The translations under genes were made by a program, and so were the position numbers. The notes beneath the pieces were generated by a model, which saw nothing but the letters and a program-made list of their open reading frames with translations, was not told the origin of the DNA and ran no database searches. Positions 3,982 to 54,058 of a stretch of 64,000 bases of DNA are shown piece after piece (positions within the stretch are counted from its first letter, which is position 1; every line of letters starts with the position of its first letter). Source of the DNA: Longitalea luteola (GTDB lineage: Bacteria > Bacteroidota > Bacteroidia > Chitinophagales > Chitinophagaceae); NCBI RefSeq assembly GCF_017356035.1, contig NZ_JAFIQX010000011.1, positions 1 to 64,000 of the forward strand. The letters are read 5' to 3'.

Positions 3982-4089
3982 GGTCACCAGTTACCAGTTT
4001 CCGGTTTCCGGGTCTTGAGCTTACAGATTGCTAACTATTGATCAAACACCTGCATTGGTGGCCTGGTAACCGGTAACCGGCAACCGATC
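3982..4089. repeat. Inverted pair of 7-bp tandem arrays between sufC and sufD
   Basis: The gap holds GGTCACC AGTTACC AGTTTCC GGTTTCC GGGTCTT (3982-4016), all in a strict 7-base phase. From 4062 to 4089 CCTGGTA ACCGGTA ACCGGCA ACCGATC follows in the opposite sense. The two halves are rough reverse complements, so the transcript could fold into a long imperfect stem. It is one member of the periodic intergenic arrays found throughout the window. Confidence 0.75.
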
Positions 4090-4099
4090 ATTTATTCAA

Positions 4100-4858
4100 T
4101 TATGCTTCAACTTTAAACTCATTCTTGATAAAATCATAGCCCTTTTCTTCCAGCTCAAGCGCCAGTTCTTTTGGACCAGATTTTACAATTCGTCCGTTGT
4201 ACAGCACATGCACAAAATCAGGTACGATATAATCCAGCAGGCGTTGATAGTGGGTAACTACCAGTACGGCGTTATCCTTGCTACGTAATTTATTCACGCC
4301 ATTGGCTACGATACGAATGGCATCGATATCCAAACCGGAATCAGTTTCATCGAGAATAGCCAGTTTGGGTTGCAGCATGGCCATCTGGAATACTTCATTC
4401 CTTTTCTTTTCACCGCCAGAAAAGCCTTCGTTCAGTGAACGGCTCAGCAGTGACTGATCGATGTTCACCATCGCCATTTTCTCTTTCATGAGTTTCAGGA
4501 ATGCTACTGCATCCAAAGGCTCTTCCCCACGGTACTTACGTACTTCATTTACCGCAGTTTTTATAAAGTTGGTAGTGCTTAAACCTGGTATTTCAACAGG
4601 GTATTGAAATGCGAGGAATAAACCTTCACCAGCTCTTTCTTCCGGAGACAGATCCAGCAGATCCTTTCCGGCAAACTCAACCGTACCATCTGTTACTTCA
4701 TAATCTTCCCGGCCAGCCAGTACCGATGCCAGGGTGCTTTTACCAGATCCGTTAGGTCCCATAATGGCATGCACTTCACCTGGTTTAATTTCGAGGTTAA
4801 TACCTTTCAAAATTTTCTTCTCGTCAATACTTGCATGCAGGTTCTTAATTGATAACAT
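4100..4858 (-). CDS. sufC: SufC ATPase of the SufBCD scaffold
   Basis: A 252-residue soluble ABC-type ATPase that drives conformational change in SufBCD during cluster assembly and is not a transporter component. Walker A GPNGSGKST is at residues 34-42, the SufC-type signature FSGGEKKRNE sits mid-protein, Walker B is LAILDETDSGLD, and the switch histidine is in VVTHYQR. It lies between sufB and sufD in the operon, 97 bases after the sufB stop. Confidence 0.96.
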   Translation of the reverse strand: MLSIKNLHASIDEKKILKGINLEIKPGEVHAIMGPNGSGKSTLASVLAGREDYEVTDGTVEFAGKDLLDLSPEERAGEGLFLAFQYPVEIPGLSTTNFIKTAVNEVRKYRGEEPLDAVAFLKLMKEKMAMVNIDQSLLSRSLNEGFSGGEKKRNEVFQMAMLQPKLAILDETDSGLDIDAIRIVANGVNKLRSKDNAVLVVTHYQRLLDYIVPDFVHVLYNGRIVKSGPKELALELEEKGYDFIKNEFKVEA

Positions 4859-4874
4859 AATAAATGATATAATT

Positions 4875-4955
4875 TAATCGTGAATCGTCATTTTTTTATT
4901 TCATTAGCATAACTTGTCCCGCTCTGCGGGATTTGCTAATTATCACATTAGCATA
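4875..4955. repeat. Short 7/8-bp periodic sequence between sufB and sufC
   Basis: TAATCGT GAATCGT (4875-4888) keep the 7-base phase and match units at 51766-51800. ATTAGCAT units follow around 4901 and 4943 and resemble the 8-base array at 19509-19548. A small inverted repeat TCCCGC..GCGGGA (about 4917-4931) sits between them. Confidence 0.5.
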
Positions 4956-6401
4956 TTAACCTACGCTTCCTTCAAGGCTGATCGCAAGCAGCTTCTGTGC
5001 TTCAACCGCAAACTCCATCGGCAACTGGTTCATAACTTCCTTGGCAAAACCATTAATGATCAGGGCAACGGCCGTTTCGGTATCAATACCGCGCTGGTTG
5101 CAGTAGAAGATCTGGTCTTCACCAATTTTGGAGGTAGTAGCTTCGTGCTCAACTACGGCTGTATTGTTCTTTACTTCAATATAAGGGAAGGTATGAGCGC
5201 CGCATTTGTCGCCTAATAATAAAGAGTCGCATTGGGAGAAGTTACGGGCATTGGCTGCATTTTTACCAACATGCACCAGTCCGCGGTAACTGTTGTTACT
5301 TACGCCGGCAGAAATACCTTTCGACACAATACGGCTGCGGGTATTTTTACCCAGGTGCATCATTTTAGTTCCGGTATCGGCCTGCTGGTGGTTATTGGTT
5401 ACTGCTACAGAATAAAACTCACCAACTGAATGATCACCTTTCAGGATCACACTGGGATATTTCCAGGTAATGGACGAACCGGTTTCTACCTGCGTCCAGG
5501 ATATTTTGGAATGAGCTCCCTGGCAAATACCGCGTTTGGTTACAAAGTTGTAAATACCGCCAACACCGTCCTTATCGCCGGGATACCAGTTTTGAACCGT
5601 TGAATATTTGATCTCGGCATTTTCCATGGCGATCAGCTCAACCACGGCAGCATGCAGCTGGTTCTCATCGCGAATAGGCGCTGTACAACCTTCCAGGTAG
5701 CTCACATAGCTGCCTTCATCGGCAATCAGCAATGTACGCTCAAACTGCCCGGTACCTTCCGCATTGATACGGAAATAGGTAGATAATTCCATCGGACAAC
5801 GAACGCCTTTCGGAATATAGCAGAAAGACCCATCGCTGAAAACAGCTGAATTCAGGGCCGAGAAATAGTTATCGGTAATAGGTACTACTGAACCTATATA
5901 TTTTTTAACCAGCTCAGGATGTTCCTGTATGGCTTCGCTGATAGAACAAAAGATGATGCCCAGCTCAGCCAGCTGCTCCTTGAAAGTGGTGCCAATGGAA
6001 ACGCTGTCAATAACCGCATCTATGGCTACGCCGGAAAGGCGTTTTTGCTCATCGAGCGAAATACCCAGCTTTTCAAATGTTTTGCGCAGCTCGGGATCGA
6101 TTTCATCGAGGCTGTTTACCTTCTTTTTCTGTTTGGGAGCAGAATAATATTTAATATCCTGATAATTAATGGCATCATACTTAATATTAGCCCAGGAAGG
6201 TTCCTGCATTTTAAGCCAGTGGTTATAAGCTTTTAGCCGCCATTCCAACATCCACTCCGGTTCATTTTTTTTGGCCGAAATAAAACGGATGGTGTCTTCA
6301 TTTAGCCCCGGAGGCGCTTCATCCGCTTCAATTTCTGTTACGAAACCATATTTGTAATCACTGAGAACCGTTTTTTCAATTGCACTAAGCTCATTGTTCA
6401 T
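4956..6401 (-). CDS. sufB: SufB scaffold subunit
   Basis: A 481-residue SufB, the main Fe-S scaffold of the SUF complex. The frame could open 15 codons earlier at 6446. I choose 6401 because the family start [20 protein letters not shown] matches there and because the TAnnTTTG promoter box at 6444-6451 covers the upstream ATG. Family features include the [12 protein letters not shown] helix, the [19 protein letters not shown] core and the C-terminal [20 protein letters not shown] strand-helix region with its essential H and E. It is the first gene of the operon and very close in sequence to other Bacteroidota SufB proteins. Confidence 0.95.
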
Positions 6402-6443
6402 ATCAAAATACTTTTGAATTGACCTGTTTTCGAATTTGGAGCA

Positions 6444-6451
6444 CAAAGGTA
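6444..6451 (-). promoter_or_regulatory. suf operon promoter, -7 box TACCTTTG
   Basis: On the minus strand TACCTTTG fits the Bacteroidota -7 consensus TAnnTTTG exactly. It lies 43 bases upstream of the sufB ATG chosen here. The -33 region is poor and is occupied by the palindrome at 6460-6475, which is what a repressor-controlled promoter would look like. Confidence 0.5.
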
Positions 6452-6459
6452 CGACAATC

Positions 6460-6475
6460 TATACTAAAAAGTATA
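6460..6475. promoter_or_regulatory. Candidate Rrf2 operator, TATACT-AAAA-AGTATA
   Basis: A perfect 6-base inverted repeat with a 4-base spacer lies directly upstream of the suf -7 box, between the -7 and -33 positions. Size and position suit the operon's own Rrf2 regulator. Binding is inferred. Confidence 0.45.
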
Positions 6476-6560
6476 AACAGCTCTGCATCATTTCTATTAT
6501 GGGGGGATAAATTTTATTTATAAAATTGTAGTCACTGACTTTCAAAGACATACAACTTTA

Positions 6561-6915
6561 TTAGCCGGCTGGGTTCGCTTTTGTTAAAAGTCTTTTCAGC
6601 GGGTAGCGCTGATGCCGGTCGGGGAATTGCGCCGCAAAGGTAGGGAAAACGCGGCTACCAGTTACCAGTTTCCAGGCCTCTTCCTTCAAAAATAAAACAG
6701 GGCTGTAGCCATCCATCTCATGTTCTACTTTCCAGGTAAGCAATCCATTATGATGCAGGAACACAGCTTTTAGTTCAGGGAGGTTGGTAATCGGAGCGAA
6801 CTGGTCGCCATCGTAAGACTTGTTCAACTGCTTCAACTGCCCTGCAGCGAACAGGCCATTAAAATATTATTGAGAACAAGGTATCTGTGATGGATACGTG
6901 TACATGTAGTTTCAT
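6561..6915 (-). pseudogene. Frameshifted small protein gene of unknown function
   Basis: The open part (to 6561) reads LKQLNKSYDGDQFAPITNLP and on through KVEHEMDGYSPVLFLKEEAW to TKANPAG, with no good start codon. An ATG at 6915 opens MKLHVHVSITDTLFSIIF and hits a stop at 6859-6861. Removing one base from the four-T run at 6861-6864 joins the two into one protein of about 117 residues (SIIF-NGLFAAGQLKQLN). I therefore read this as one gene broken by a single-base insertion, or a sequencing error in the homopolymer. I do not recognise the family, and it has no signal peptide or membrane segment. Confidence 0.5.
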
Positions 6916-6985
6916 TGTGTTTGGGTTTAGAAGAACGAGGTAAAATAAACCCGTGCAAATGCCTCGTACCTAACCATGAAAACAG

Positions 6986-7001
6986 CATGATTTAAATCAT
7001 G
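6986..7001. promoter_or_regulatory. 16-bp perfect palindrome, FNR/CRP-like
   Basis: CATGATTTAAATCATG is fully palindromic and contains TGAT-N4-ATCA, the core spacing of FNR/CRP-type operators. It sits 71 bases upstream of the ATG of the frameshifted gene at 6915 and downstream of the SGNH lipoprotein gene. The bound regulator is unknown. Confidence 0.35.
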
Positions 7002-7083
7002 ATGCAGACCTTCTGTTCTAGCTACATTGGCGGCAACCATCCATTGTTAATATTCAATTTTTCAATGCGCCTGCCAACTTTTT

Positions 7084-7797
7084 CTACAATAGCTCGCGGA
7101 TAACCTTCCACACATTCTCGGCCACTATTTTATGCCCCTCCCGGTTAGGATGGATGCCATCGGCCTGGTTCAGCGATGCAACGCCGCCTACATGCTCGAG
7201 AAGAAATGGGATAAGATATAGATTGTTTTTGCTTGCCAATTGTTCAAACGTTCCGCGGAAAGCGGTTGCATACTGCCGGCCCATGTTGGGTGGAACCTGC
7301 ATACCCGCCAGAATTATTTTTGCGTTGGGGTATTTTTCTCTTACCCGGTCAATAATAGCTTGCAGGTTACGGGAAGTTTCTGCGATAGGAATACCCCGCA
7401 GACCATCATTTCCGCCCAGTTCCAATACAAATACATCTACCGGCTGCCGGAGTATCCAGTCGATCCGGCTTCTACCACCTGCAGTGGTTTCGCCGCTTAC
7501 TCCCGCATTCACTACCTTATAAGGCAATTGCAGACTATCTATTTTTTCCTGCACCAATGCGGGGAATGCTTCCGATGAAGCGTCCACGCCATACCCTGCA
7601 GTTAAACTGTTACCATAGAATACTATGGTCTTTGTTTTTACATTGTCAGCTGTTCCTGTCACCTGTTCCCGCTTTTGTTTGGCAGCTTCGCTCGTTTTTT
7701 CCTCGTTATTCGCGCAGCCGGCCAGCAATATCAACGCCAGTAAACCGGCTGCAAATAGTTTTCCGCCCATATAATAAATACTGCTAAACTGTTTCAT
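7084..7797 (-). CDS. SGNH/GDSL hydrolase lipoprotein (TesA-like arylesterase/thioesterase)
   Basis: A 237-residue SGNH esterase. The blocks are all present: block I GNSLTAGYG, block II GVSGETTAGG, block III GGNDG and block V DGIHPN with the catalytic Asp-His. The start at 7797 is chosen over longer frames because AAAGGAGGT lies seven bases upstream and because it exposes a lipoprotein signal peptide with lipobox LAGC (C28). The enzyme is therefore expected to be a membrane-anchored periplasmic esterase. It is transcribed away from an ABC ATPase and an FtsX-like permease, the same arrangement as tesA with ybbA-ybbP in E. coli. Confidence 0.88.
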   Translation of the reverse strand: MKQFSSIYYMGGKLFAAGLLALILLAGCANNEEKTSEAAKQKREQVTGTADNVKTKTIVFYGNSLTAGYGVDASSEAFPALVQEKIDSLQLPYKVVNAGVSGETTAGGRSRIDWILRQPVDVFVLELGGNDGLRGIPIAETSRNLQAIIDRVREKYPNAKIILAGMQVPPNMGRQYATAFRGTFEQLASKNNLYLIPFLLEHVGGVASLNQADGIHPNREGHKIVAENVWKVIRELL

Positions 7798-7815
7798 CGG
7801 TACCTCCTTTAGAAT
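7788..7815 (-). promoter_or_regulatory. Strong Shine-Dalgarno deciding the SGNH lipoprotein start
   Basis: Read on the minus strand, AAAGGAGGTACCGATG places a full anti-16S match ahead of the ATG at 7797. Strong sites of this kind are rare in Bacteroidota, so it is a useful start marker. Confidence 0.6.
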
Positions 7816-8018
7816 TTGCCCTTTTATTTCATTCAAATCACCTGCCGGATTTTTCAACATTTCCTGGTCTTCAATCCCCGTTTTCAAGGTAAAGAAGAGA
7901 ACTATTCCTGTTTTTTCCGCTGTTCCGTCTATACGATCTTTCGAATAGTTTACTCTCAAAATAACATTAATTTAAGCAACTTTATTACTACACAACTGTA
8001 ATTAAAAGTTTAATCCTT

Positions 8019-8207
8019 GCGAGTAGTAAGTGGCGAGTCGCCGACAAAGCTTCGCTTGTCGAGATGCCGGCCGCGAGCATCGGAACGGGGAAATACAAGG
8101 GGGCGGAAATCTACTGCTAACCACAACTTTTCAATTAAACAGGCAGTCAGGTAATAGCGAGTGACACGTAAAACCACTAGCCATTTACCACCAGCCACTA
8201 GCTTTTT
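8019..8207. repeat. 7-bp periodic arrays and hairpins in the tesA/ybbA-like divergent gap
   Basis: GCGAGTA GTAAGTG GCGAGTC (8019-8039) and ACCACTA GCCATTT ACCACCA GCCACTA GCTTTTT (8173-8207) are in 7-base phase, the second partly the reverse complement of the first. Between them are two small hairpins: CGACAA..TTGTCG (8042-8061) and GATGC..GCATC (8063-8081). I find no gene in 7798-8214. Confidence 0.6.
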
Positions 8208-8214
8208 AGCATAT

Positions 8215-8895
8215 ATGGAAACAATTCTCAACGTAAAGAACGTTAGCAAAACATACCAGGGCGCGGGGCAAACCCTGACGGTGCTCAATGATGTGAATTT
8301 CGCGGTGGAAGCCGGTTCAACCGTTTCTATTGTCGGCCCATCAGGCAGTGGTAAAACTACGCTGCTGGGACTCTGCGCCGGGCTCGACCGGGCCAGTATG
8401 GGTTCGGTAGAACTTAACAATATCCGGCTCGATCAATTGAGTGAAGATGAACGGGCACAAGTGCGCAACCGCTATGTAGGTTTTATTTTTCAGAACTTCC
8501 AGTTACTGCCTACGCTCACTGCGCTCGAAAATGTGATGGTGCCGTTGGAATTGCGGGGTGAAAAACATGTGCGCGCCCGGTCAATCGGATTGCTGGAAAA
8601 AGTTGGCCTGCAAAACCGTATCCATCACTACCCTGCCCAGCTGTCGGGCGGCGAACAGCAACGGGTGTCACTGGCCCGGGCTTTTGCTAATAAACCCCGC
8701 ATCTTATTTGCCGACGAACCAACCGGTAACCTCGATGTGGAAACCAGTGACAAAGTGATCAAACTCCTGTTCGACCTGAACCAGGAGGCCGGCACAACAT
8801 TGATCATCGTGACCCATAACCTGGAACTGGCTTCACAAACCAAACGTATTATAAAGATCAAAGGCGGGCATCTCGTAGCTGATGAACTGAACTAA
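8215..8895 (+). CDS. YbbA-like ABC transporter ATPase
   Basis: A 226-residue ATPase of the LolD/MacB/YbbA type, which works with FtsX-like permeases in mechanotransmission rather than transport. Walker A GPSGSGKTT is at residues 41-49, the signature is LSGGEQQRVSLARAFANKP, Walker B is ILFADEPTGNLD and the switch histidine is in IVTHN. The ATG at 8215 is preferred to an upstream GTG because METILNVKNVSKTY is the family N-terminus and the upstream stretch is repeat. It precedes the permease by 172 bases. Confidence 0.92.
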   Translation: METILNVKNVSKTYQGAGQTLTVLNDVNFAVEAGSTVSIVGPSGSGKTTLLGLCAGLDRASMGSVELNNIRLDQLSEDERAQVRNRYVGFIFQNFQLLPTLTALENVMVPLELRGEKHVRARSIGLLEKVGLQNRIHHYPAQLSGGEQQRVSLARAFANKPRILFADEPTGNLDVETSDKVIKLLFDLNQEAGTTLIIVTHNLELASQTKRIIKIKGGHLVADELN

Positions 8896-9055
8896 AAATC
8901 CGAAATTACAAATCACAAGACCCAGATAAATCTCAAAACTCAATGAACAAATCACAATGGTAAATCGCAATTCTCAAATAAATGCCCAACTCAGATTATT
9001 GGTCTTATTGGTTTTTGGAATTTATTTGGTACCTGGTTCCTGTGGTTTGTGATTT
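8896..9055. repeat. 7-bp periodic array between ATPase and permease genes
   Basis: Directly after the stop codon come AAATCCG AAATTAC AAATCAC AAGACCC, then TCTCAAA ACTCAAT GAACAAA TCACAAT GGTAAAT CGCAATT CTCAAAT, roughly NNNCAAW in 7-base steps. The second half (8993-9055) is rich in TTGG and TGGTTCC words in the opposite sense and ends TTTGTGATTT, the complement of AAATCACAA near the start. The whole gap could fold back on itself. Confidence 0.65.
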
Positions 9056-9067
9056 AAATAAGGCAGG

Positions 9068-11626: not shown

Positions 11627-11632
11627 GCGCTG

Positions 11633-11800
11633 AAGGCGCAAGGCTAAAGGCTGAAGGCCGAAGGCTGAAGGCACAAGGCTAAAGGCGCAAGGCTGAAGGC
11701 TAAAGGCGGAAGGCTGAAGGCGCAAAGCTAAAGGCTAAAGGCTTAAGGCTAAAGGCGCAAGGCTGAAGGCGGAAGGCTGAAGGCTGAAGGCGCAAGGCCA
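11633..11800. repeat. 24-unit AAGGCNN heptamer array
   Basis: Starting seven bases after the permease stop, 24 consecutive 7-base units read AAGGC plus two variable bases. The pairs used are TG, GC, TA, CG, AC, GG, TT and CA. Only one unit (AAAGCTA) departs from AAGGC and there is no phase slip over 168 bases. A second array of this unit lies at 46050-46154. It sits in a gap between convergent genes. Confidence 0.92.
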
Positions 11801-11814
11801 CGCAAGCGATCTGC

Positions 11815-11901
11815 GTTAACCGTTAAGCGTTTATCGTTGAGCGTTTAACCCGCCTTCGCTAAAGCTACGGACGGGCAAGCGTTCAGCGTAACCGGTAAAT
11901 G
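11815..11901. repeat. GTTAAGC-type heptamer array reaching into the next gene's stop
   Basis: GTTAACC GTTAAGC GTTTATC GTTGAGC GTTTAAC (11815-11849) keep a 7-base phase. After a hairpin-like CCGCCTTCGCT..ACGGACGGGC spacer, GTTCAGC GTAACCG GTAAATG (11881-11901) resume the period. This last stretch includes the stop and final codons of the minus-strand gene ending at 11883. Confidence 0.65.
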
Positions 11902-14010: not shown

Positions 14011-14050
14011 CTGTCAACGCTATCAACCCATGAACTTGTCAACTCGTTAA
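14011..14050. repeat. 8-bp periodic array (TTGAnnnn family, inverted)
   Basis: In the 444-base divergent gap (13864-14307), CTGTCAA CGCTATCAA CCCATGAA CTTGTCAA CTCGTTAA repeat with period 8 (one 9-base step). Read on the other strand they are AGTT-led units like those at 19408-19471, sharing GTTAACGAGTTGA. The rest of the gap holds no gene I can support. Confidence 0.6.
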
Positions 14051-17300: not shown

Positions 17301-19401
17301 TTTTACCAATACCTCAGGCCTGTTAAGTGGCATCCAGTTCTTTTGGGATTTTGGCAATGGTATTTCCAGCAACCAGGTGTCGCCCGCCGCTATTACCTAC
17401 CATCCCGGTGCCGATTTCAGGGATACAACTTATTACATAACGCTGAAAGCCTATAATGGCTGTGATACTTCATACCATCGCGATAGCGTATTGGTGTATG
17501 CCAACGCCAAAGCACGGTTTACGGTTGACACCACCAAAGGCTGTTCGCCTTTTGATGTCACCATTACCAATAAATCGGCGGGAAACAATGTTGCTTATTA
17601 CTGGGACTTTGGCGATGGTCTTAAAGATACCACTACCACGAACAATCCATTTGTACATGTATATCATACAGGCGCTATCAGCACGTATGAGATCCGGTTG
17701 ATCGCCGAAAACCAATGCCGGCGCGATACCCAACGCATCAGTGTGCTGGTAATGCCGAATTCCATAGATGCACACATAACCATAAACGGCAACCAGTTGG
17801 AAGGCTGCGCCCCGCATCCTGTCACATTCAATAACAGCAGCGTTGGCGCATCAACGCTTACCTGGGATTTTGGCGACAATGCTGCCAGGATCACCACTCC
17901 CAATGCACAGAATATCGTAAGCTATACCTATCAGCGCCCGGGCACATTTACGGTAACTGTGAGACTGCAAAATGACTGTTCCGATACCACGATCTATCGA
18001 AAGGTAACCGTTCATGCGCCCCCTGTTGCCGGCTTTAACCTGAACGATGCGCTTGTTTGCACCGGTAACAATGTGTTTACGGCCAATACAGCCCAGGAAG
18101 CAACAGCCTATGAATGGTTCTGGGGAGATGGACAAACCTCCTCTACAACCAACGGTTCCCATGCCTACGCTTCAGCAGGCAGTTACACCATTCAGCAGGT
18201 GGCTAAAAAAATAAACAATGCCGGGATGGTTTGTACAGATACCGCCTCGCACCTGGTGGTGATCACAGATAAAATAAAAGCCCGGCTAACAGTACGCCCC
18301 GGCAAAACGTGTGTGCCTTATACGTTACAAACGACTGCCACCGGCGCTGCCAATGCCTTCAAAACAGCATGGATATTTTACGACAGCGCCCAGGCGCCCT
18401 ATACCTTCAACGCCACCGGTAGTTCTGCAGCTCACGTGTATAACAAGCCCGGTAAATACCAGGTAAAACTGATCGTACATACAACAAACGAATGTGCCGA
18501 CAGTACAACCTTTTCTTTTGAAGTGCATAATACACCTGTAGTGCTTGGCACACCGGCCAGCAACAGTACCTGCAGCCACGACACAACCCTGTCGTTCAAC
18601 GCCCATGTGAGTTATACGGGCACCGATGACGTGCACCTGAAATGGTTTGTCAATAACGACCTGCAGGGTATGGCCAATCCGTTTGCTTATCGTTTCAAGG
18701 CGCCGGTACAAGCTGGTACGCCAACTGTTTACTCCATTCAGGTACTGGCAGAAAACGCCGCCGGCTGCGGCGACACAACTTCGGCGGGCGAGCTGCACAT
18801 GCAGCCTTTACCGCGGCCTGCCATTGCATTGTCACCAGCCAATATATTGCTGCAACCCGATTATACATTCACCTTTTGGGATACAGTGGCTACCAATGCC
18901 AATAAAGTGTACACCTGGGATATGGGCGATAAAACGCGGCAGCAATTGTCGGGGCAGAAAATAACCTACGAATATGCCGACACCGGCGCTTATAAAATAC
19001 AGTTATATGTGCATGATCATGGAACCGGCTGCAGCGGGTACGATACTGTGCACGTACGCATCCTGCATGTACCCGGTTACCTGTATGTGCCAAACGCCAT
19101 TTGCCCCGGATGCAGCAACAACGCGTTACGGCAGTTCCTGCCCATGGGAAAAGGGCTATCGCAATACCGCTTGCGCATTTTCAATACCTGGGGGCAGAAA
19201 ATATTTGAAACAACCCGGCTCGATGGCAATGGATCGCCCAACGACCCCTGGGATGGAAGATACAATGGCCAGGCTGTACAGCAGGACACCTATGGCTGGC
19301 AGATAGAAGCCAGGTATATAAACGGAACAGAATGGAAAGGTATGCTGTTCCCTAATAGTGATAAACCCGTTAAGGCAGGGTTTATTACGGTTGTGAAATA
19401 G
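14308..19401 (+). CDS. Large PKD-repeat surface protein with gliding-motility/T9SS C-terminal domain
   Basis: A 1697-residue secreted protein. A signal peptide (LSASFVLLFFSFLLASPAFT) is followed by many immunoglobulin-like and PKD domains; PKD motifs are visible as WTFGDGTTST, WDFGNGISS, YWDFGDGLKD, TWDFGDNA and WFWGDGQTSS. The last ~90 residues resemble the CHU_C (type B) sorting domain, with YRLRIFNTWGQKIFET, PWDGRYNGQ and a final KAGFITVVK strand, so it should leave the cell through the type IX secretion system. The usual VPNAFTPNGDG entry is replaced by VPNAICPGCSNNALRQF. A PorP/SprF-family gene follows, the standard pairing for such cargo. It may be an adhesin or structural filament. Confidence 0.88.
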   Translation: MRQTRKLSASFVLLFFSFLLASPAFTQVTAGIRANGKMVDHGDTVRICEGNSIQYLSAAQGSFIIGWTFTGGHIPGASGIGPFNVYYPATGYYATKQIVTAGNMADSILIVVYVSNEKPAAGFSFSPNNVCGNIDIQFTGHATGTGLSYFWTFGDGTTSTLPNPTHQFLQAVGMPGTTTYSVKQVVTNLFGCKDSTTQQVTIRNVPDASIGNADANINFGTFNGVSTFRRCSNIPSYTFSFINQSTTMPINTSYSISWGDGTPDTSFNSWPAGTVIKHIFPLGSSSMTVRVTGADGCIGIRKYIVFLGSTPAGGLSSLGNTDICASDSLRFAINNIAANPPGTQYTFLINDGSAPQVFVHPPPAVAAHFFAHGSCSFSSSSGNNTFNNAFGAYLTIENPCGTTSPSVVPIYVSGKPRAQIAVSPSETVCTQAAVSIVSNSTYGSVITPTGGTGSTCTNSGKQVWTISPASGYTINSGNLGSLNGSSLNGLLWNSGSNALNVTFNATGTYTVKLYVFNDKCGLDSTLKVICVRNPPDAQFSMSRKMSCGPGSALFTNTSPVNGCQGDEYKWEVTYDDPLNCGSSQSPAWQFLNGATEETTSPEIRFNAPGRYIIRLTVTAAAARTACAESFKQDTFYVSSLPKAAIDPIPAVCITNGLTPSATSNTCYSPGPLGYQWNFTNGTPATSNLQHPGTIHYAGTGTHAVQLKVIDSSCNTSVVLNTTVTVTPKPVANAGPDTAICGRAVITLGAPAVNGVSYQWSPATGLSNPAIANPVLQLDYTGSANDTTYGYQLTASIGANCATEDSIYIRVKRRPVVTLNTPATTICINTSTRLEAGGAGSYTWWPGTSLNHIAPDTVMAAPTTTTTYYVAGTLANGCADTTSVQVTVNPDAKAQFTATGITQCAPVNLDTVIQTTPFPQGNGLYTWYANGTPISSGTNSAFPSYPINGQAETAIIKLVTSSRHGCKADSMEMTFNTVPGVTAGFTKDQSKGCGPLTVSFTNTSGLLSGIQFFWDFGNGISSNQVSPAAITYHPGADFRDTTYYITLKAYNGCDTSYHRDSVLVYANAKARFTVDTTKGCSPFDVTITNKSAGNNVAYYWDFGDGLKDTTTTNNPFVHVYHTGAISTYEIRLIAENQCRRDTQRISVLVMPNSIDAHITINGNQLEGCAPHPVTFNNSSVGASTLTWDFGDNAARITTPNAQNIVSYTYQRPGTFTVTVRLQNDCSDTTIYRKVTVHAPPVAGFNLNDALVCTGNNVFTANTAQEATAYEWFWGDGQTSSTTNGSHAYASAGSYTIQQVAKKINNAGMVCTDTASHLVVITDKIKARLTVRPGKTCVPYTLQTTATGAANAFKTAWIFYDSAQAPYTFNATGSSAAHVYNKPGKYQVKLIVHTTNECADSTTFSFEVHNTPVVLGTPASNSTCSHDTTLSFNAHVSYTGTDDVHLKWFVNNDLQGMANPFAYRFKAPVQAGTPTVYSIQVLAENAAGCGDTTSAGELHMQPLPRPAIALSPANILLQPDYTFTFWDTVATNANKVYTWDMGDKTRQQLSGQKITYEYADTGAYKIQLYVHDHGTGCSGYDTVHVRILHVPGYLYVPNAICPGCSNNALRQFLPMGKGLSQYRLRIFNTWGQKIFETTRLDGNGSPNDPWDGRYNGQAVQQDTYGWQIEARYINGTEWKGMLFPNSDKPVKAGFITVVK

Positions 19402-19407
19402 TTGATC

Positions 19408-19471
19408 AGTTGACCAGTTGACCAGTTAACGAGTTGAAGAGTTACTGAGTTGTTCAGTTATTAAGTTATTC
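19408..19471. repeat. AGTTNNNN octamer array
   Basis: Seven bases after the PKD gene stop, eight 8-base units in a row begin AGTT (one begins inside the partial unit before it): AGTTGACC twice, then AGTTAACG, AGTTGAAG, AGTTACTG, AGTTGTTC, AGTTATTA, AGTTATTC. The four leading bases are constant and the rest vary. Confidence 0.85.
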
Positions 19472-19508
19472 AGCCAATTATAGGATCGGCACATTGGTTT
19501 TGAATTTC

Positions 19509-19548
19509 ATTAGCATATTAGCCAATTAGCACATCAGCACATTGGTTC
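19509..19548. repeat. ATTAGCNN octamer array
   Basis: Five 8-base units, ATTAGCAT ATTAGCCA ATTAGCAC ATCAGCAC ATTGGTTC, sit just upstream of the PorP/SprF gene. The same ATTAGCAT word occurs in the sufB-sufC gap. Confidence 0.75.
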
Positions 19549-20652: not shown

Positions 20653-21001
20653 GTTATTTATGTGTAATTATTACGCGGTTATGCTCTTCTTTTATAACTC
20701 CAACAGACCACTGAACATAACCTTTTTACTACCTTTTATTGGCCCTGGAGTAACCCCAGGATCGCAATTGCGTCGTACCAGCTTCGCTGATATTTCGTAT
20801 ATATTCCGTAGATGTCTCGTAGATGTCTCGTATATAAGCCGTTCCTTTAAAGGTACGGGACATGTACGGCACATCCTGGAGATACGTACATTAAACACAT
20901 TAAACATGGGCGAAGCTGACCCGAACCAGATACGATCCAGGGGGCATCCAGGTGTGTTCAACAGGTTATAAAAAGCAGTAAAGCGTTAAAGAAAAAGGAG
21001 A
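20653..21001. repeat. Gene-free gap with a tandem 11-mer
   Basis: This 349-base stretch has no supportable gene. It contains TAGATGTCTCG twice in tandem (20809-20819 and 20820-20830), flanked by TCGTATATA on either side, and a 10-base palindrome CCTTTAAAGG just downstream (about 20846-20855). A CTGGAG..CCCCAG hairpin lies near 20745-20762. Confidence 0.45.
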
Positions 21002-21211
21002 TTATAAAGGATCGTGATCCTTTGCCTTGAACTTGTAATCATTAAAAAGCGGGAGTGGCTCTTTTACATATAGTTTATTGGGAGCCTTTGTTTTGGATAC
21101 AGTTTTTTTCTCTTCATTGATAACTTCTTCTTTCTTGTAAACTAACCTTAACGAGGAAGATTCTTCCGCTGCCGTCAGTTGAACTGGTTGGGTATTTCCT
21201 TTGATTTTCAT
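21002..21211 (-). CDS. Small charged protein of unknown function
   Basis: A 69-residue frame, MKIKGNTQPVQL to KAKDHDPL, lysine- and glutamate-rich, with no signal peptide or membrane segment and no cysteine. It is separated from the MOSC gene upstream by the terminator at 21251-21288, so it would need its own promoter. Amino-acid make-up is plausible for a real gene, but I know no family and no start signal is evident. Confidence 0.45.
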   Translation of the reverse strand: MKIKGNTQPVQLTAAEESSSLRLVYKKEEVINEEKKTVSKTKAPNKLYVKEPLPLFNDYKFKAKDHDPL

Positions 21212-21250
21212 GAGCAGTGCATTTAGTAAGTTATGAGGGACTTACATAGT

Positions 21251-21288
21251 AAAAAAAACAGACCACCTGCTTCCAGCGGGGTGATCTG
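21251..21288 (-). terminator. Intrinsic terminator of the MOSC gene
   Basis: On the minus strand CAGATCACC and GGTGGTCTG form a 9-base stem with one mismatch, followed directly by eight T. It lies 70 bases after the MOSC stop. Confidence 0.8.
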
Positions 21289-21357
21289 CTTATATTCACA
21301 TCTTGTGTTGACTAATTTCCTCAGTCGTAGAAATAAAAACTGATAATGGGGCAAGCT

Positions 21358-46049: not shown

Positions 46050-46154
46050 AAGGTTCAAGGCTAAGGGCTGAAGGCTAAGGGCTGAAGGCTGAAGGCGCAA
46101 GGCTAAGGGCTGAAGTCTAAAAGCGAAAAGCTAAGGGCCGAAGGCTGAAGGCGC
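46050..46154. repeat. 15-unit A(A/G)(A/G)GCNN heptamer array
   Basis: Fifteen 7-base units without phase slip: AAGGTTC, AAGGCTA, AGGGCTG, AAGGCTA, AGGGCTG, AAGGCTG, AAGGCGC and so on to AAGGCGC at 46148-46154. The words match those at 11633-11800 in the same orientation. It begins 13 bases upstream of the CDF start codon, in the region where its promoter would lie. Confidence 0.9.
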
Positions 46155-49260: not shown

Positions 49261-49298
49261 AGTTAACTAACAAAAGTAATAATAACAAATGTTAGTTT

Positions 49299-49431
49299 GA
49301 AATCTGAAACCCGAAGCCGGAAATCGGAAACCTGAAGTCGGAAGTCCGAAGTCGGAAATTACTCATACCTCAGACCTCAGACTTCTGACCTCAGACTTCT
49401 GACCTCAGACTTCTGACTTCAGACCTCAGTC
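49299..49431. repeat. 19-unit heptamer array in inverted halves
   Basis: Nine units of the GAARYCN type (GAAATCT, GAAACCC, GAAGCCG, ... GAAGTCG, GAAATTA) run to 49361. Ten of the CTCAGAC/TTCTGAC type, the reverse complement GAAGTCN-like set, run to 49431. Phase is kept over all 133 bases. It fills the gap between the E1 start and the FAH-gene terminator. Confidence 0.9.
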
Positions 49432-49436
49432 CGCCT

Positions 49437-49474: not shown

Positions 49475-49500
49475 ATTTCCTTGTAATGATGATCTATTTG

Positions 49501-50112
49501 TTATTTGATCTCTAAACTTAATAAGCTGTCGTCTTCGATAAAGGCTTCCAGCTCGTCACCAACTACACATTCGCCAACACCGGCTGGTGTACCGGTAAAT
49601 ACGAGGTCGCCAATATTCACTGAAAAATAGTTGGAGATATAAGCAACTACTTTATCAAAGTTATTGATCATTAAACCTGAATTACCCTGCTGCACCAGCT
49701 CTTTATTTTTATACAGACAGAAGTTGATGTCTTTTTTGTTCTTGATATTCGTAAGCGGGATCCACTTTCCGATCACTGCAGAATTATCCCAGGCTTTCGC
49801 TTTTTCCCAGGGCAATCCCTTTTCTTTCAGCTCCGTCTGAATATCTCGTGCGGTGAAGTCGATACCAACTGTTACGGCGTCATAATACTTACTGGCAAAT
49901 CTATCCTGAATGTACTTTCCATTCTTGGATATACGCAATACCAGTTCACACTCATAATGCAATTCGTTAGTGAACTCAGGGTAATAAAAAGGGGTATGAG
50001 CCTGCAGTAAAGCACTTTTAGGTTTCATAAAAACGATAGGTTCTTCAGGAACCTCGTTACCCAATTCTTTTGCGTGAGCCACATAATTACGGCCTACACA
50101 GAAAATTTTCAT
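49501..50112 (-). CDS. Fumarylacetoacetate-hydrolase-family protein
   Basis: A 203-residue single-domain FAH protein (start at 50112, MKIFCVGRNYVAHAKELGN). The divalent-metal residues are in YECELVLRI (E-x-E) and VGIDFTARDIQ (Asp). LVFTGTPAGVG is the conserved C-terminal loop. Members are hydrolases or decarboxylases of acylpyruvates or oxaloacetate (YcgM/FAHD1-like). It is the last of a minus-strand run with pth upstream (146 bases), ended by the terminator at 49437. Confidence 0.9.
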   Translation of the reverse strand: MKIFCVGRNYVAHAKELGNEVPEEPIVFMKPKSALLQAHTPFYYPEFTNELHYECELVLRISKNGKYIQDRFASKYYDAVTVGIDFTARDIQTELKEKGLPWEKAKAWDNSAVIGKWIPLTNIKNKKDINFCLYKNKELVQQGNSGLMINNFDKVVAYISNYFSVNIGDLVFTGTPAGVGECVVGDELEAFIEDDSLLSLEIK

Positions 50113-50258
50113 ACTCAACAAAGGGTTTAATTGAGATAATTGTTTTCAAGTTTCATGCGCCTGGAAAAGCCGGGGTACGTGGACATAGAGATATTGAATA
50201 TCAAATTATTACTCACCTCAATATTGGCATTGCGAAAATAAAGATTCAAATTAACAAA

Positions 50259-50834
50259 TCATAGTGTAAACTCCAATTTATTCGCTTCATTCATAGTTCG
50301 TTCGATGCCAATGGTGATAAAATTTTCTATCACTTCCACACATTTTTCAACCTTTCGTTTTACTAAGGGCGCTTCCTCGGGCGTCCAGCGGCTTAGCACA
50401 AAATCCGCCTGCCCTCCTTTGGGGAAATTGTTACCGATACCAAGTCGTAATCGGGGATATTTATCGGTAAGAAGGGTTTCCTCTATGCTCCGCAATCCGT
50501 TATGACCGGCACAGCTACCCGAAGGTCTCAGCCGTATCCGGGAAAGCGGTAATGCAATATCGTCTACTATTACCAATAATTGTTCCAAAGCGACCGATTC
50601 TTTTTCCATCCAATACTTTACAGCTTTCCCACTAAGGTTCATATACGTCGTAGGCTTGATAATTGTCAATTTTTTGCCTTTCCACTTTATATCACAAACC
50701 TGTGCCAGCCTGCCCACTCCAAAAAAGCCGCCATGTTTTTGCACGAAAGCATCTACTACATCAAATCCGATGTTATGACGTGTGTATGCATATTCATCTC
50801 CAATATTACCTAAACCAATCAACAGGAATTTCAT
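50259..50834 (-). CDS. pth: Peptidyl-tRNA hydrolase
   Basis: A 191-residue Pth that frees peptide from stalled peptidyl-tRNA. Seen: LLIGLGNIGDEYAYTRHNIGF with catalytic H20 (quoted here in full only up to the histidine region), YMNLSGKAV, LVIVDDIALPL and GHNGLRSIEETL. Length is normal. It lies downstream of rplY, the usual prs-rplY-pth order. Confidence 0.95.
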   Translation of the reverse strand: MKFLLIGLGNIGDEYAYTRHNIGFDVVDAFVQKHGGFFGVGRLAQVCDIKWKGKKLTIIKPTTYMNLSGKAVKYWMEKESVALEQLLVIVDDIALPLSRIRLRPSGSCAGHNGLRSIEETLLTDKYPRLRLGIGNNFPKGGQADFVLSRWTPEEAPLVKRKVEKCVEVIENFITIGIERTMNEANKLEFTL

Positions 50835-50894
50835 AAAAATGGCAATAATGATACTGGGTGGTGGGTAAGCTACATGCAGAAAAGGCCCAAAATG

Positions 50895-51020
50895 ATCGAA
50901 ACTGGCTATGGATCAAAAAGGTCTAATCAGTCAACCGGCAAATGGATCAAATTGGTCAAATGAGTCTGTTCAAAGGTAGTACGATCAGTAAAAAGGGTCA
51001 AATCAGTCAATGATACCTTT
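50895..51020. repeat. 9-bp periodic array between rplY and pth
   Basis: GGTCAAAT/GATCAAAA-type words recur at 9-base steps: GGATCAAAA AGGTCTAAT CAGTCAACC, then (after a two-base slip) ATCAAATTG GTCAAATGA GTCTGTTCA. Similar words appear again near 50984-51012. The period is longer and less exact than in the heptamer arrays. Confidence 0.5.
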
Positions 51021-51062
51021 TTCTCAGTTCCTCATGTGACTCACTTGACCGCTTTATGTGAC

Positions 51063-51086
51063 TTAAAAGCCCGGAGTTACCGGGCT
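51063..51086 (-). terminator. Terminator hairpin after rplY
   Basis: AGCCCGG and CCGGGCT pair perfectly around a 5-base loop on the minus strand, with a short TTTT tail. It is 21 bases after the rplY stop. Confidence 0.65.
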
Positions 51087-51106
51087 TAATATGCAATTAT
51101 CTTATG

Positions 51107-51739
51107 TTACTTTTTGGCAGCAGGTGCTTTTGCAGGAGCAGCGGCGGGCGCTTTGGCTCCGGCAGCAGGTGCAGCAGCAGCTTCTTCCTGTTTCAACTGA
51201 CGCGTCATTACAACTGATGCAATGGGGATACGCGGTGAGTTCAGGATCTCGTAATTAGCTTCCTTCACATCTTCTACACGAATGTTGCCATTCAGTTGCA
51301 GGTTAGTGATATCAACCTCGATATTCTCTTTCAGGTGTTGGGGAAGTGTCTTTACTTTTAAAGATTTTACTTTAGTAATAAGACGGCCACCATCTTTTAC
51401 CCCTTGTGAAGCTCCGGTGAACTTAATAGGGATAGTAGCAATTACTGCTTTGTCCTGAACCAGTTCCAGGAAGTCAACGTGTGACAGCTCATCTGTTACC
51501 TTGTCGAACTGCAGGTCTTTCAAAATACATTTGTAGCTTTTTCCGTCTACCTGGATGTCAGCTAACTGGAAATCAGGAGTATATACGATGGATTTAAAAG
51601 CCAGCACAGGTGCTGCGAAAGCAATTTCCTGTGTACCGCCGTAAATTACACCAGGCACCAGTCCCTGAGAGCGAAGTTGGCGGGTGGCTTTTTTCCCGGT
51701 TTCGGTCCTCAGTTGTCCTTCGATTGTAATTGTTTTCAT
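51107..51739 (-). CDS. rplY: 50S ribosomal protein bL25 (CTC/TL5 long form)
   Basis: A 210-residue bL25 of the long CTC type that binds 5S rRNA. The N-terminal L25 domain (about 1-92) is EGQLRTETGKKATRQLRSQG with VPGVIYGG, and the C-terminal TL5 domain (about 95-185) has KFTGASQGVKDGG. An alanine/proline-rich low-complexity tail (EEAAAAPAAGAKAPAAAPAK) ends it. It follows prs by 122 bases. Confidence 0.95.
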   Translation of the reverse strand: MKTITIEGQLRTETGKKATRQLRSQGLVPGVIYGGTQEIAFAAPVLAFKSIVYTPDFQLADIQVDGKSYKCILKDLQFDKVTDELSHVDFLELVQDKAVIATIPIKFTGASQGVKDGGRLITKVKSLKVKTLPQHLKENIEVDITNLQLNGNIRVEDVKEANYEILNSPRIPIASVVMTRQLKQEEAAAAPAAGAKAPAAAPAKAPAAKK

Positions 51740-51765
51740 TGTTTATTTTAATTTATAAATTCTGT

Positions 51766-51800
51766 CAATCGTGAATCGGTAATCGTGCATAGCTCACTCT
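51766..51800. repeat. AATCGT heptamer array between prs and rplY
   Basis: CAATCGT GAATCGG TAATCGT GCATAGC TCACTCT in 7-base phase. TAATCGT GAATCGT also occurs at 4875-4888. Confidence 0.65.
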
Positions 51801-51861
51801 CCGATCCTGATAACTATTGGCCATTCTAAAATCCGTTTCTTCAAATGCCAATATCGTCGCC

Positions 51862-52812
51862 TTACCTGTTCCTTCTTTGGCTATGTATAAATAAGCCTGT
51901 GATACTTCTGTTCTCGTATGCATTGCGGATGGCTACTGCAAACAGCTCTGCCACGCTCAGGATCTTCACTTTTGATATTTTCTGTTTCAAAGGAATTGTA
52001 TCACACACTACCAGTTCTTCCAGTACACTGTTCTCAATATTTGAGTAGGCGTTTCCGCTTAAAACAGGGTGTGTGCACAAAGCCCGAACGCTGCGGGCCC
52101 CTTTTTCTTTCAACAAACCGGCTGCTTTAGCCAGTGTGCCGCCTGTATCGCAAATATCATCGATCAGGACGACGTCCCTGTCGGTAACATCACCAATGAC
52201 CACCATACTGGCAATTTCATTAGCGCGTTTACGGTGCTTATCGCATATTACCATTTCTGCATTGAAATAAGAGGCAATTTCACGGATGCGATTGGCACTT
52301 CCCACGTCAGGGGCCGCAAAGGTAAGGTTTTCCAGCTGAAGTTGCTGGATGTAAGGAATAAAAATAGCGGAACTGTCGAGATGGTCTACGGGGATATCGA
52401 AATAGCCCTGGATCTGCGGAGCATGCAGGTCCATGGTGATCACGCGATCGGCGCCGGCGGCCACTAACATATTGGCAACCAGCTTAGAACCTATAGCCAC
52501 GCGGGGCTTGTCCTTCCTGTCCTGCCGCGCGTAGCCATAATATGGTATAACAGCCACCACTTTATAGGCCGAAGCGCGCCGGGCGGCATCGATCATTAAT
52601 AATAACTCTAAAATGTTTTCAGCCGGTGCAAATGTGCTTTGCACCAGGAAAACCATATCGCCCCGGATACTTTCCTGAAATACAGGCTGAATTTCGCCAT
52701 CGCTGAACTTCGAGATGGTTATTTTTCCAAGGGTAGCTCCGAATTTTTGAGCTATTTTTTCGGCCAGGTATTGTGACCCCGTGCCTGAAAAGATCTTGAC
52801 TGACATTTGCAT
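51862..52812 (-). CDS. prs: Ribose-phosphate pyrophosphokinase
   Basis: A 316-residue PRPP synthetase (ribose 5-phosphate + ATP to PRPP). Motifs: GTGSQYLAEKIA opening, FSDGEIQPVFQESIRG, YGYARQDRKDKPR (ATP site), MDLHAPQIQGYFDIPVDHL and the PRPP loop VVLIDDICDTGGTLAKAA. Start at 52812 or, two codons later, 52806. It heads the prs-rplY-pth group. Confidence 0.96.
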   Translation of the reverse strand: MQMSVKIFSGTGSQYLAEKIAQKFGATLGKITISKFSDGEIQPVFQESIRGDMVFLVQSTFAPAENILELLLMIDAARRASAYKVVAVIPYYGYARQDRKDKPRVAIGSKLVANMLVAAGADRVITMDLHAPQIQGYFDIPVDHLDSSAIFIPYIQQLQLENLTFAAPDVGSANRIREIASYFNAEMVICDKHRKRANEIASMVVIGDVTDRDVVLIDDICDTGGTLAKAAGLLKEKGARSVRALCTHPVLSGNAYSNIENSVLEELVVCDTIPLKQKISKVKILSVAELFAVAIRNAYENRSITGLFIHSQRRNR

Positions 52813-52956
52813 ACCGCAGTAAAATGTGCGGCGAAGATAACGCGAAGCATGGGATTTGACCGATAACCTATGTACAAAAAATTTATTTCACCGTTCTGCA
52901 GAAAAAAATAGTATTTCAATGGTTATTGATTAATCGGTGGATCCCCAAAACAGGTG

Positions 52957-53172
52957 TTACTTGGTCACTGTCAGCAGCATTCTTGATCCGCCATGTGTTG
53001 CAGCAGCCGTTTTATGTCCCGAAGCGTCTTTCGCTATCTTTTTGGGATAAAATGCATAAAAAACAGCAGAACATATAAATATGGAAAAGAAAAGGGCAAC
53101 AAAGTACATTCCGATGCAAAAAAGGAAGGGTTGGTAACCTCCAATAGCGGCTAGAGTAGTCTTTCTATTCAT
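52957..53172 (-). CDS. Small membrane protein of unknown function
   Basis: A 71-residue protein with one long hydrophobic segment (PFLFCIGMYFVALFFSIFIC, about 15-42), then a basic, alanine-rich tail. No family is recognised. It lies between divergently placed prs and radC with no visible ribosome site; a real gene is possible but not certain. Confidence 0.45.
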   Translation of the reverse strand: MNRKTTLAAIGGYQPFLFCIGMYFVALFFSIFICSAVFYAFYPKKIAKDASGHKTAAATHGGSRMLLTVTK

Positions 53173-53298
53173 GGGGATATAGATTAAGTATTTTTAAATA
53201 AGATTTGGATTTATACATGAAATAACGCACATGCTAGTACATAACGTACATTTTGTGGTTATAGTATTTGTCCGAAAAGTACTAGAAATATTTGAACT

Positions 53299-53991
53299 AT
53301 GCAAGAAACTAAATTTTCAATAAAAAAATGGGCTAAAGACGACCGTCCCCGGGAAAAGCTACTTGGGAAAAATCCATCTACTTTAAGCGACTCGGAACTA
53401 CTGTCGATCCTGATCGGAAACGGTCATCGGGAAAAAAATGCCGTTGAACTGGCAAAAGAGGTCCTTCGACTGGGCAAGAACAACCTAAATGAACTAGGTA
53501 AAGTTACCATACAGGAGATGCTGCGTATCAAAGGGATCGGAAAAGTGAAGGCCATAACCATCATGGCAGCCCTGGAACTCGGCCGCCGCCGCCAGGCTGC
53601 CCTTTCCATGGAAAAGCCTTATGTGAAGAACAGCCGCGACATAGCCAGCTACCTGCAGGCCCTCCTTCGCGACCTGCCGCACGAGGTATTTGCGGTGGCC
53701 TATCTGAACCAGGCGAACCGCATCAATCATTTCGAGATCATTAGTAAAGGCGGTATAACCGGAACGATAGCCGATCCCCGGGTAATTTTGAAGAAAGCGT
53801 TGCTCGAAGAAGCCGTAAGCCTCATTCTTTGCCATAACCACCCTTCAGGCAATTTACAACCCAGCCGGGCCGACAAGGAGCTTACCAGAAAATTAAAGGA
53901 CGCGGCCAAACTGTTCGATATCTCGCTGTTCGACCACATTATAGTTAGTGATAACGGCTATTTCAGCTTTGCCGATGCGGGAATATTGTAG
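53299..53991 (+). CDS. radC: RadC/JAB-domain protein
   Basis: A 230-residue RadC. N-terminal helix-hairpin-helix region (LSDSELLSILIGNGH, MLRIKGIGKVKA) and C-terminal JAB/MPN domain (about 110-230) with the metal motif CHNHPSGNLQPSRAD and ISLFDHIIV. The proposed DNA-repair role is doubtful; a JAMM-type metalloprotease fold is what the sequence shows. It converges on the DUF3467 gene. Confidence 0.93.
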   Translation: MQETKFSIKKWAKDDRPREKLLGKNPSTLSDSELLSILIGNGHREKNAVELAKEVLRLGKNNLNELGKVTIQEMLRIKGIGKVKAITIMAALELGRRRQAALSMEKPYVKNSRDIASYLQALLRDLPHEVFAVAYLNQANRINHFEIISKGGITGTIADPRVILKKALLEEAVSLILCHNHPSGNLQPSRADKELTRKLKDAAKLFDISLFDHIIVSDNGYFSFADAGIL

Positions 53992-54058
53992 TTTGTGGTT
54001 TATGGTTTGTGGTTTGTTGTTAACAACCGCAAACAACAAACTATAAACAACAAACCTG
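53991..54058. repeat. GTTTNTG heptamer array, inverted, filling the radC/DUF3467 gap
   Basis: GTTTGTG GTTTATG GTTTGTG GTTTGTT, a short centre, then AAACAAC AAACTAT AAACAAC AAACCTG. The halves pair along almost all of their length (about 31 of 34 positions, allowing a few changes). The first unit shares its G with the radC stop and the last ends two bases before the other gene's stop. A bidirectional terminator role is likely. Confidence 0.85.

Follow-up and report, generated by a model that had tools for sequence, protein, structure and literature searches.

Heterocystous cyanobacteria carry short tandemly repeated repetitive (STRR) sequences, which are seven-base tandem repeats located in intergenic DNA and for which we know of no inverted plan of seven- or eight-base units. 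The present analysis concerns degenerate tandem arrays of seven- or eight-base units in the gaps between genes of Longitalea luteola, as encountered in the first 64 kb of contig C2 (hereafter, the window) of genome G000 (7.3 Mb), which belongs to the Niastella group of soil bacteria. A seven-base intergenic excess is common to these arrays and the STRR-like repeats; the latter use few fixed words, in contrast to the 22 clusters of seven-base and 15 clusters of eight-base words found here.

The closest published system is that of the Xanthomonas GGGANTN heptads. The Xanthomonas GGGAATC/GGGANTN and Nostoc GGGGA(C/T)T heptads form one G-rich, quadruplex-capable word family, and they resemble the present arrays in being intergenic, in combining constant and variable columns, in changing rapidly between related species, in forming inverted pairs (70 and 75 cases there), and in lying nearer to the 3' end of the upstream open reading frame (averages of 28 versus 160 there, medians of 22 versus 117 bases here) (PMC4692102). 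The Niastella arrays differ in the many words per genome, in the use of both periods 7 and 8, in their genome-specific dialects, and in the exchange of words at positions that are kept. Moreover, a GGG or CCC tract is present in none of the 44 distinct seven-base words and in 5 of the 24 eight-base words (7 of 49 arrays), quadruplex capacity being judged by the word alone.

The TAACTGA direct repeats of Beggiatoaceae, Cyanobacteria, and some Bacteroidetes are likewise intergenic seven-base tandem units, and in some Bacteroidetes other heptamers occur nearby and relatives are repeat-free in the same gap; they differ from the present arrays in consisting of a single word, in lying mostly upstream of start codons in Beggiatoaceae, and in including one inverted repeat among 170 sets (PMC4679880). 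Repetitive extragenic palindromes (REPs), their hairpin-forming doublets (REPINs), and the associated tyrosine transposases (RAYTs) offer another parallel, being described as extragenic, located downstream of genes, arranged in inverted doublets, genome-specific, and accompanied by a Y1 transposase in the genome (PMC3116915, PMC3733652). The arrays described here differ in that they show no GTAG/CGTC tag, no conserved element, and no consistent link to a transposase. In the open-access papers searched, we found no description of such arrays in Chitinophagaceae.

Periodicity of intergenic DNA

A sequence-only reading of the window had proposed that arrays of constant unit length and variable sequence fill many of its gaps. 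We delimited gaps with a simple codon-usage gene caller and called arrays by a maximal-segment scan at each period from 4 to 13. The blind set consists of the window and 29 stretches of 20 kb from G000 (321 gaps, 108 kb of gap DNA). The first 20 stretches taken from G000 included 11 picked for AAGGC matches; these are excluded from all blind counts and included in the gap-folding comparison and in the own-genome rows of the arm and mismatch counts for genus, family, and phylum. Gaps shorter than 30 bases (50 for the hairpin tests) were dropped, as were N-containing gaps in several tests, and because the gene caller was retrained, the blind set has from 98 to 100 array-bearing gaps out of 321, depending on the count.

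Measured against dinucleotide shuffles, autocorrelation in the 31 gaps of the window has its maximum at lag 7 (z 7.4) and further peaks at the harmonics 14 and 21, and in nine blind 20-kb stretches it is raised at lag 7 (z 11.9) and lag 8 (z 9.5), with harmonics at 14 and 16 and a weaker one at 21. Gaps show a small excess at lags 3 and 6 as well (z about 3-4), and coding DNA shows multiples of 3 only. The scan recovered 140 arrays in 100 gaps of the blind set, 78 with period 7 and 49 with period 8 (127 of 140 together), as against 0.4 and 0.9, or about 1.3 together, in shuffled gaps. The remaining periods pooled gave 13 arrays versus 5.1 in shuffles, mainly at periods 4 and 11; period 9 accounted for one array versus 0.6. 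The 485 kb of coding DNA in the same stretches contained 37 arrays, four of them with period 7 or 8, and 100 kb of Escherichia coli K-12 yielded no arrays in 51 gaps. Altogether, arrays make up about one tenth of the sampled intergenic DNA of G000 and occur in nearly one third of its gaps. The proposed excess is thus real, genome-wide, and not unique to the window.

Arrays are found in 14-34% of the gaps in G000 and seven other members of the genus (80-180 kb sampled in each), and in none of six gaps of G006, for which 20 kb was sampled. In the sister species G007, 18 of 114 gaps (one contig and four stretches from others) carry arrays versus 99 of 321 in G000, and one contig alone gives 12 of 83 or 84. 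Other genera range from 0 of 20 gaps (G052) to 15 of 34 (G018) and 11 of 26 (G374). Furthermore, 80 named loci, mostly from Bacteroidota, contain 116 arrays, with 51 at period 7 (3.3 in shuffles), 17 at period 8 (2.7), and a weaker excess at periods 9-11 (27 versus 9.0). These samples show that the preference for seven bases is wide, as earlier reported for bacterial simple sequence repeats (SSRs), and that the Niastella genomes are especially rich in such arrays, with period 8 in addition.

Several individual cases were encountered in the course of these counts. An 11.5-kb piece of a contig from a Flavobacteriales metagenome-assembled genome (L192) contains six period-7 arrays. In G004, six period-11 arrays occur in 120 kb (L067-L068, L105-L108), above the other genus members sampled, and the window itself has an 11-base tandem repeat, GATATCTCGTA, at 20789-20836 in the convergent gap 20653-21357, with similar units in the orthologous gap of G007. 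At L044 12097-12577 (G000:C1), more than a dozen perfect TCTGCCT units in tandem lead into a run of N, so that arrays may break assemblies.

Hairpins, words, and exchange of words

The arrays are often inverted pairs of arms, a feature that the sequence-only reading had missed and that supports its link between the arrays and folded DNA. In the blind set, 54 of 99 array-bearing gaps have inverted arms whose best score lies above every one of 20 shuffles, versus 36 of 203 other gaps (Fisher p 2e-10), and the same excess is seen in the genus (30 of 56 versus 28 of 190) and in the family (15 of 23 versus 19 of 99). For codirectional array hairpins, the median arm is about 36 bases and the loop about 30. 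Gaps with arrays also fold better (median z -2.1 in 84 gaps versus -0.8 in 155 others, with the AAGGC-picked stretches included). With respect to placement, 59 of 143 array-to-3'-end relations in G000 fall within 10 bases (23.0 expected under uniform placement), as do 14 of 107 for 5' ends (10.5 expected); the preference is clear, and the earlier statement that most arrays start no more than ten bases from a stop codon was too strong. Convergent gaps carry arrays in 22 of 50 cases, codirectional gaps in 67 of 210, and divergent gaps in 11 of 61.

The conservation of length with many words holds across the genome and in relatives, but the words are not free, as had been supposed: they recur in families. 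In the blind set, the 44 distinct words of the 78 period-7 arrays fall into 22 clusters, with 61 arrays in nine of these, and the 49 period-8 arrays use 24 words in 15 clusters, five of which account for 37. Identical runs of at least 20 bases are shared by 60 gap pairs versus 15.0 after shuffling of units and 23.7 after shuffling of two-unit blocks; for runs of at least 24 bases, the numbers are 20, 3.4, and 7.8. The earlier assertion that the arrays do not reflect copying of one element therefore finds no support. Fragments are shared about threefold more often within G000 (0.0126 of pairs) than between G000 and other genus members (0.0039), and 1028 of 1048 gap-gap BLAST matches are array to array, the other 20 being non-array. 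In a separate case, a 76-base interspersed repeat, 89% identical between two gaps (L081 5095-5591 and L093 9620-10384), is partly array.

The populations of words amount to dialects. We counted matches to five words in ten whole genomes on both strands, overlapping positions included, so that the counts are not array numbers. AAGGCNN has 738 matches in G000, 28 in the sister G007, and 2 in G001 (83, 14, and 6 for the reversed-pattern control). CATTAGCA has 437 in G007, 310 in G002, and 290 in G000, as against 2 in G004, 1 in G009, and 0 in G008, the assembly of which is 61% complete; its control is 0 in all ten genomes. GGTAACC ranges from 453 to 3 and AGTTAACA from 337 to 3, the latter with a high control in G006, and TTTGAAAA has 92 matches in G003 and at most 9 elsewhere. 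Word counts thus differ up to several hundredfold between species, and G007 exceeds G000 in CATTAGCA and GGTAACC matches although fewer of its gaps carry arrays. Given that five core genes are 90.9% identical between G000 and G007 and 91.3% between G005 and G009, the word populations must grow and shrink quickly. Within the family, matches to CATTAGCA are unevenly spread (480 in G370 and 94 in G395, with 96 of the 117 genomes searched having none), and among 296 genomes drawn from the phylum GGTAACC was matched in 8, with 221 of the matches in G000.

Two rules that might govern the choice of units were tried and rejected. Eight-base arrays are more AT-rich than seven-base arrays (GC 0.312 versus 0.431, p 5e-9), and the nearest-neighbor energy per unit is equal (-9.63 and -9.45), which would fit an energy rule for unit length. 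The other genus members show the GC difference again (p 8e-6), whereas the family (p 0.65) and the phylum sample (p 0.28) do not, and it weakens if each word contributes a single time (p 0.017 with distinct words, 0.12 with cluster seeds); we therefore treat it as an effect of the lexicon. The hypothesis that units whose length is not a multiple of 3 are kept to supply stop triplets in all frames is unsupported by distinct words (84 of 125 versus 81.1 permuted); the excess per array (177 of 236 versus 157.2, reached by 0 of 200 permutations) is ascribed to recurring words.

Comparison of orthologous gaps reveals both turnover and exchange. At a threshold of 10, eight of the ten array-bearing gaps of the window have no array in G007; one of the two that are kept has the same word, and the other is eight-base where G000 has a seven-base array. 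The aro operon (DEAD helicase, DAHP synthase/chorismate mutase, Y1 transposase, aroB, aroA) has three gaps that could be compared in nine species, with arrays in 23 of 27, always eight-base in the first and third gap and seven-base in the second. In the first gap, CATTAGCA-type words are used by six species, TTTGAAAA by G003, and AGTTAACA by G004 and G009; G003 is the only genome rich in TTTGAAAA, and G004 and G009 are nearly without CATTAGCA. For each of the three gaps, left and right arm within one species match better than the same arm does across species (own-arm scores of 40.2, 35.9, and 31.0 versus between-species scores of 23.6-27.4, 27.3-29.5, and 16.9-17.5). The locus was chosen for its transposase, so that its richness in arrays is a one-locus observation.

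Arrays of the window

Each of the twelve stretches named in the sequence-only reading was compared, at the lag claimed for it, with 1000 dinucleotide shuffles, and ten pass. The probability is at most 0.002 for 3982-4089, 8896-9055, 11633-11901, 14011-14050, 19408-19548, 46050-46154, 49299-49431, 51766-51800, and 53991-54058. The nine-base stretch at 50895..50985 also passes (segment p 0.002, whole-stretch p 0.016) and is an outlier among units of 7 and 8. The stretch 8019-8207 gives a marginal result (p 0.003-0.010, or 0.09 when any lag 5-12 is allowed). The stretch 4875-4955 fails, with p 0.06-0.20 (0.33 when any lag is allowed), although a hairpin of CATTAGCA units is visible there. Strands are given below where assigned.

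Between genes that are sufC-like and sufD-like by Pfam name, a left arm of seven-base GTTACCR/GTTTCCG units (3982..4012, + strand) faces a right arm (4062..4086, - strand) of GGTAACC units, the reverse complement of the GTTACCR word. The enclosing gap, 3943-4099 (157 bases), is 32 bases long in G007; it carries GTTACCR in G000 and G003, GTTCCNN in G005, and GTTACAN in G006, while G001, G002, G004, G007, and G009 have none there. The weak eight-base CATTAGCA hairpin of the failing stretch (4902..4955) lies between the sufB-like and sufC-like genes. The marginal stretch 8019..8207, a divergent gap, has TAGTGGC/AGTGGCG-type arms, with related hairpins in G007, G003, and G002. Inverted seven-base AAATCNC arms occupy 8896..9055, a gap in which G007, G004, and G001 have eight-base AAAATCTC-type arms in the opposite orientation.

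An array of 24 AAGGCNN units with five near-constant and two variable columns (11629..11798, +) lies in a gap whose G007 ortholog is 4 bases long. It is faced by an imperfectly complementary GCGTTNA array (11813..11888, -), of which a single GCGTTCAGCG is kept in G007. A separate palindrome-like element (CCTTCGCTAAAGCT-CGG) is found at 11850-11874 and in an array-bearing gap of G005 (L018 3087-3104 and L070 17649-17666, which are one place); its pattern matched 2 of 281 loci, and related non-array gap-gap BLAST matches exist. Further along the window are a short eight-base AACTTGTC-type array (14011..14050), an eight-base AGTTNNNN array that starts at the stop codon of the upstream gene (19400..19473, +), and an eight-base CATTAGCA array (19508..19543, +). 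A second AAGGCNN array (46050..46153, +) is not at a stop codon, is missing in G007, and has no inverted partner that we could find. The seven-base GAARYCN arm at 49299..49359 (+), also away from a stop codon and missing in G007, is paired with an in-phase complement, CTCAGAC/CTTCTGA (49362..49429, -). A short seven-base AATCGTG array lies at 51766..51800, and a GTTTGTG arm (53986..54021, +), the first unit of which touches the stop codon, is paired with CAAACAA (54025..54055, -). At the place in G007 orthologous to 53970-54080 (L061 11040-11760), GTTTGTG arms together with a core of about 130 bases are present in four tandem copies.

Origin and significance of the arrays

The arrays consist of seven- or eight-base units, often form inverted pairs of arms, and adjoin the 3' ends of genes. 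Their words are common to the gaps of one genome and unlike between genomes, and the same gap can have the same plan with other words. With belief and doubt about evenly balanced, we propose that they are a dispersed, DNA-level family of hairpin-building repeats that spreads and becomes uniform within its genome and whose presence behind stop codons is tolerated. Local slippage would gain or lose seven- or eight-base units as wholes, a switch of template from one hairpin arm to the other would homogenize their words, and non-allelic copying between hairpins at different gaps could do the same across the genome, in the manner of concerted evolution or molecular drive, with selection chiefly clearing arrays out of promoters and genes. 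The loop limit of mismatch repair, about four bases, would not exclude units of 5, 6, 9, or 10. The cause suggested in print for the seven-base length is the duplex length contacted by DNA polymerase (PMC4679880, citing Mrazek 2007). A more specific proposal, which is possible and on the whole somewhat unlikely, is a word-switching molecular drive, whereby a trans-acting process rewrites old hairpin positions into a seven- or eight-base word abundant in the genome, with unit length and approximately unit number kept.

Several observations weigh against a family of this kind. No copying event was caught with one genome compared per species, and the cores are not shared between gaps (20 versus 1028 gap matches), so that they give no support to transposition of whole elements. 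Columns are uneven in just 19 of 93 arrays, and convergent constraint could be a partial source of the recurrence of words. The excess of inverted arms is weak in the phylum sample (16 of 57 versus 80 of 510, p 0.025; median z 0.58 versus 0.51), which indicates that the pairing into hairpins is for the most part a trait of the lineage. In G001, a CATTAGCA-type arm persists in the aro operon with just 8 CATTAGCA matches genome-wide, so that retained words do not always track abundance. The arms of about four units maintained at aro in nine species exceed what neutral drive predicts; because hairpins have been held there so long, a mild benefit of the hairpin at a few such positions is likely. 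Finally, G-U mismatches lead A-C mismatches within G000 alone (111 to 84, p 0.06; blind set, 71 to 50, p 0.07), and T is slightly more frequent behind the arms of convergent array hairpins (0.367 versus 0.310; TTTT in 2 of 24).

One alternative is that the arrays are selected RNA hairpins at transcript 3' ends or between operon genes, serving as stabilizers, processing sites, or terminators, in which only the fold counts and the sequence is free. The position after stop codons and in convergent gaps, the better folding of array-bearing gaps, the lead of G-U mismatches within G000, and the persistence of the aro hairpins in nine species with changed words (sense-strand minimum free energy z -0.8 to -8.8) all fit this explanation, which we nevertheless judge unlikely. 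The aro antisense strand folds about equally well (z -0.7 to -7.9), eight of ten window positions are without an array in G007, and some arrays, such as that at 46050, have no partner arm. The G-U lead of G000 is gone once genus (19 to 31) and family (8 to 14) are added (138 to 129 in all codirectional array hairpins), and at aro it is 22 to 15 (p 0.32); selection at the RNA level by wobble was rejected as a candidate, the mismatch bias being inconsistent across these sets. Unlike intrinsic (Rho-independent) terminators, codirectional array hairpins are not followed by a T-run (TTTT within the next 10 bases in 3 of 71; T 0.299 versus 0.301 in the gap), and of the convergent ones 2 of 24 have TTTT in that span. 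Support for RNA pairing or for intrinsic termination as the chief driving force is therefore not obtained.

It is less probable still that the arrays are REPIN-like elements mobilized by the Y1 (IS200-type) transposase of the genus. The Y1_Tnp profile has one whole-profile match in each of the 10 genus genomes, and a His-X-His pair and a tyrosine, which we take to be the catalytic residues, align with solved chains of IS200/IS605-type transposases. The gene lies within the aro operon at all nine genus loci that were read, 8-9 bases before aroB (L223 7213-7668, G000:C39; orthologous loci L224-L226 and L263-L267), amid gaps that carry arrays in 23 of 27 cases versus 38 of 115 codirectional gaps of 90-160 bases. 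The inverted pairs, the extragenic location, and the genome-specific populations are also REPIN-like, and arrays are nearly lacking in G031 (1 of 35 gaps) and G052 (0 of 20), two of the genomes without Y1. Across the family, however, Y1 does not track the arrays: G011 (1 of 33) and G024 (2 of 28) have Y1 and few arrays, G017 has 2 of 16 without Y1, and G018 has 15 of 34 with a broken copy. Arrays are absent from the gaps surrounding 13 of 17 other Y1 loci and present at 4 (threshold 10), the GTAG and CGTC tags occur at the feet of 10 and 3 of 262 arms (6.9 and 3.1 expected), and the many words come with no conserved element or core shared across copies. Reverse transcriptases (PF00078), of which nine genus genomes have 2-6 matches each and the incomplete G008 a single one, showed no relation to the arrays by eye.

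Purely local replication slippage and decay, with each array born in place and never copied elsewhere, which is the view of the sequence-only reading, is in our judgment very unlikely. Heptamers are the commonest long-unit bacterial SSRs (Mrazek 2007, as cited in PMC4692102 and PMC4679880), and the single GCGTTCAGCG at the empty G007 site resembles a seed. Such slippage does not predict the recurrence of words, the runs and word order common to different gaps, the dialects, or the exchange of words at kept positions, including the arms of about four units that persist at aro while the word changes between species.

Ribbon-helix-helix proteins have footprints of the 7-8 base kind, and the arrays could conceivably be sites for cooperative binding of such proteins to DNA, or of cold-shock proteins to RNA, with dialects following protein specificity. 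This is the least probable explanation: a constant core with variable bases in some arrays (13 of 93 at p < 0.01), the retention of the period while the aro word changes, and the report that one CspB monomer binds each heptamer with weak specificity (cited in PMC4679880) are offset by the 22 and 15 word clusters side by side in one genome, the lack of an obvious common feature among the neighboring genes examined (suf, aro, ABC transporter), and the lack of uneven columns in most arrays.

The arrays may affect the ends of mRNAs. Moreover, they constitute a countable, word-tagged system in which the spread and replacement of very short repeats within genomes can be traced across species. Since the aro operon shows the same gap and the same period with different words across relatives, the question why heptamers prevail among the long-unit repeats of bacteria becomes directly testable.

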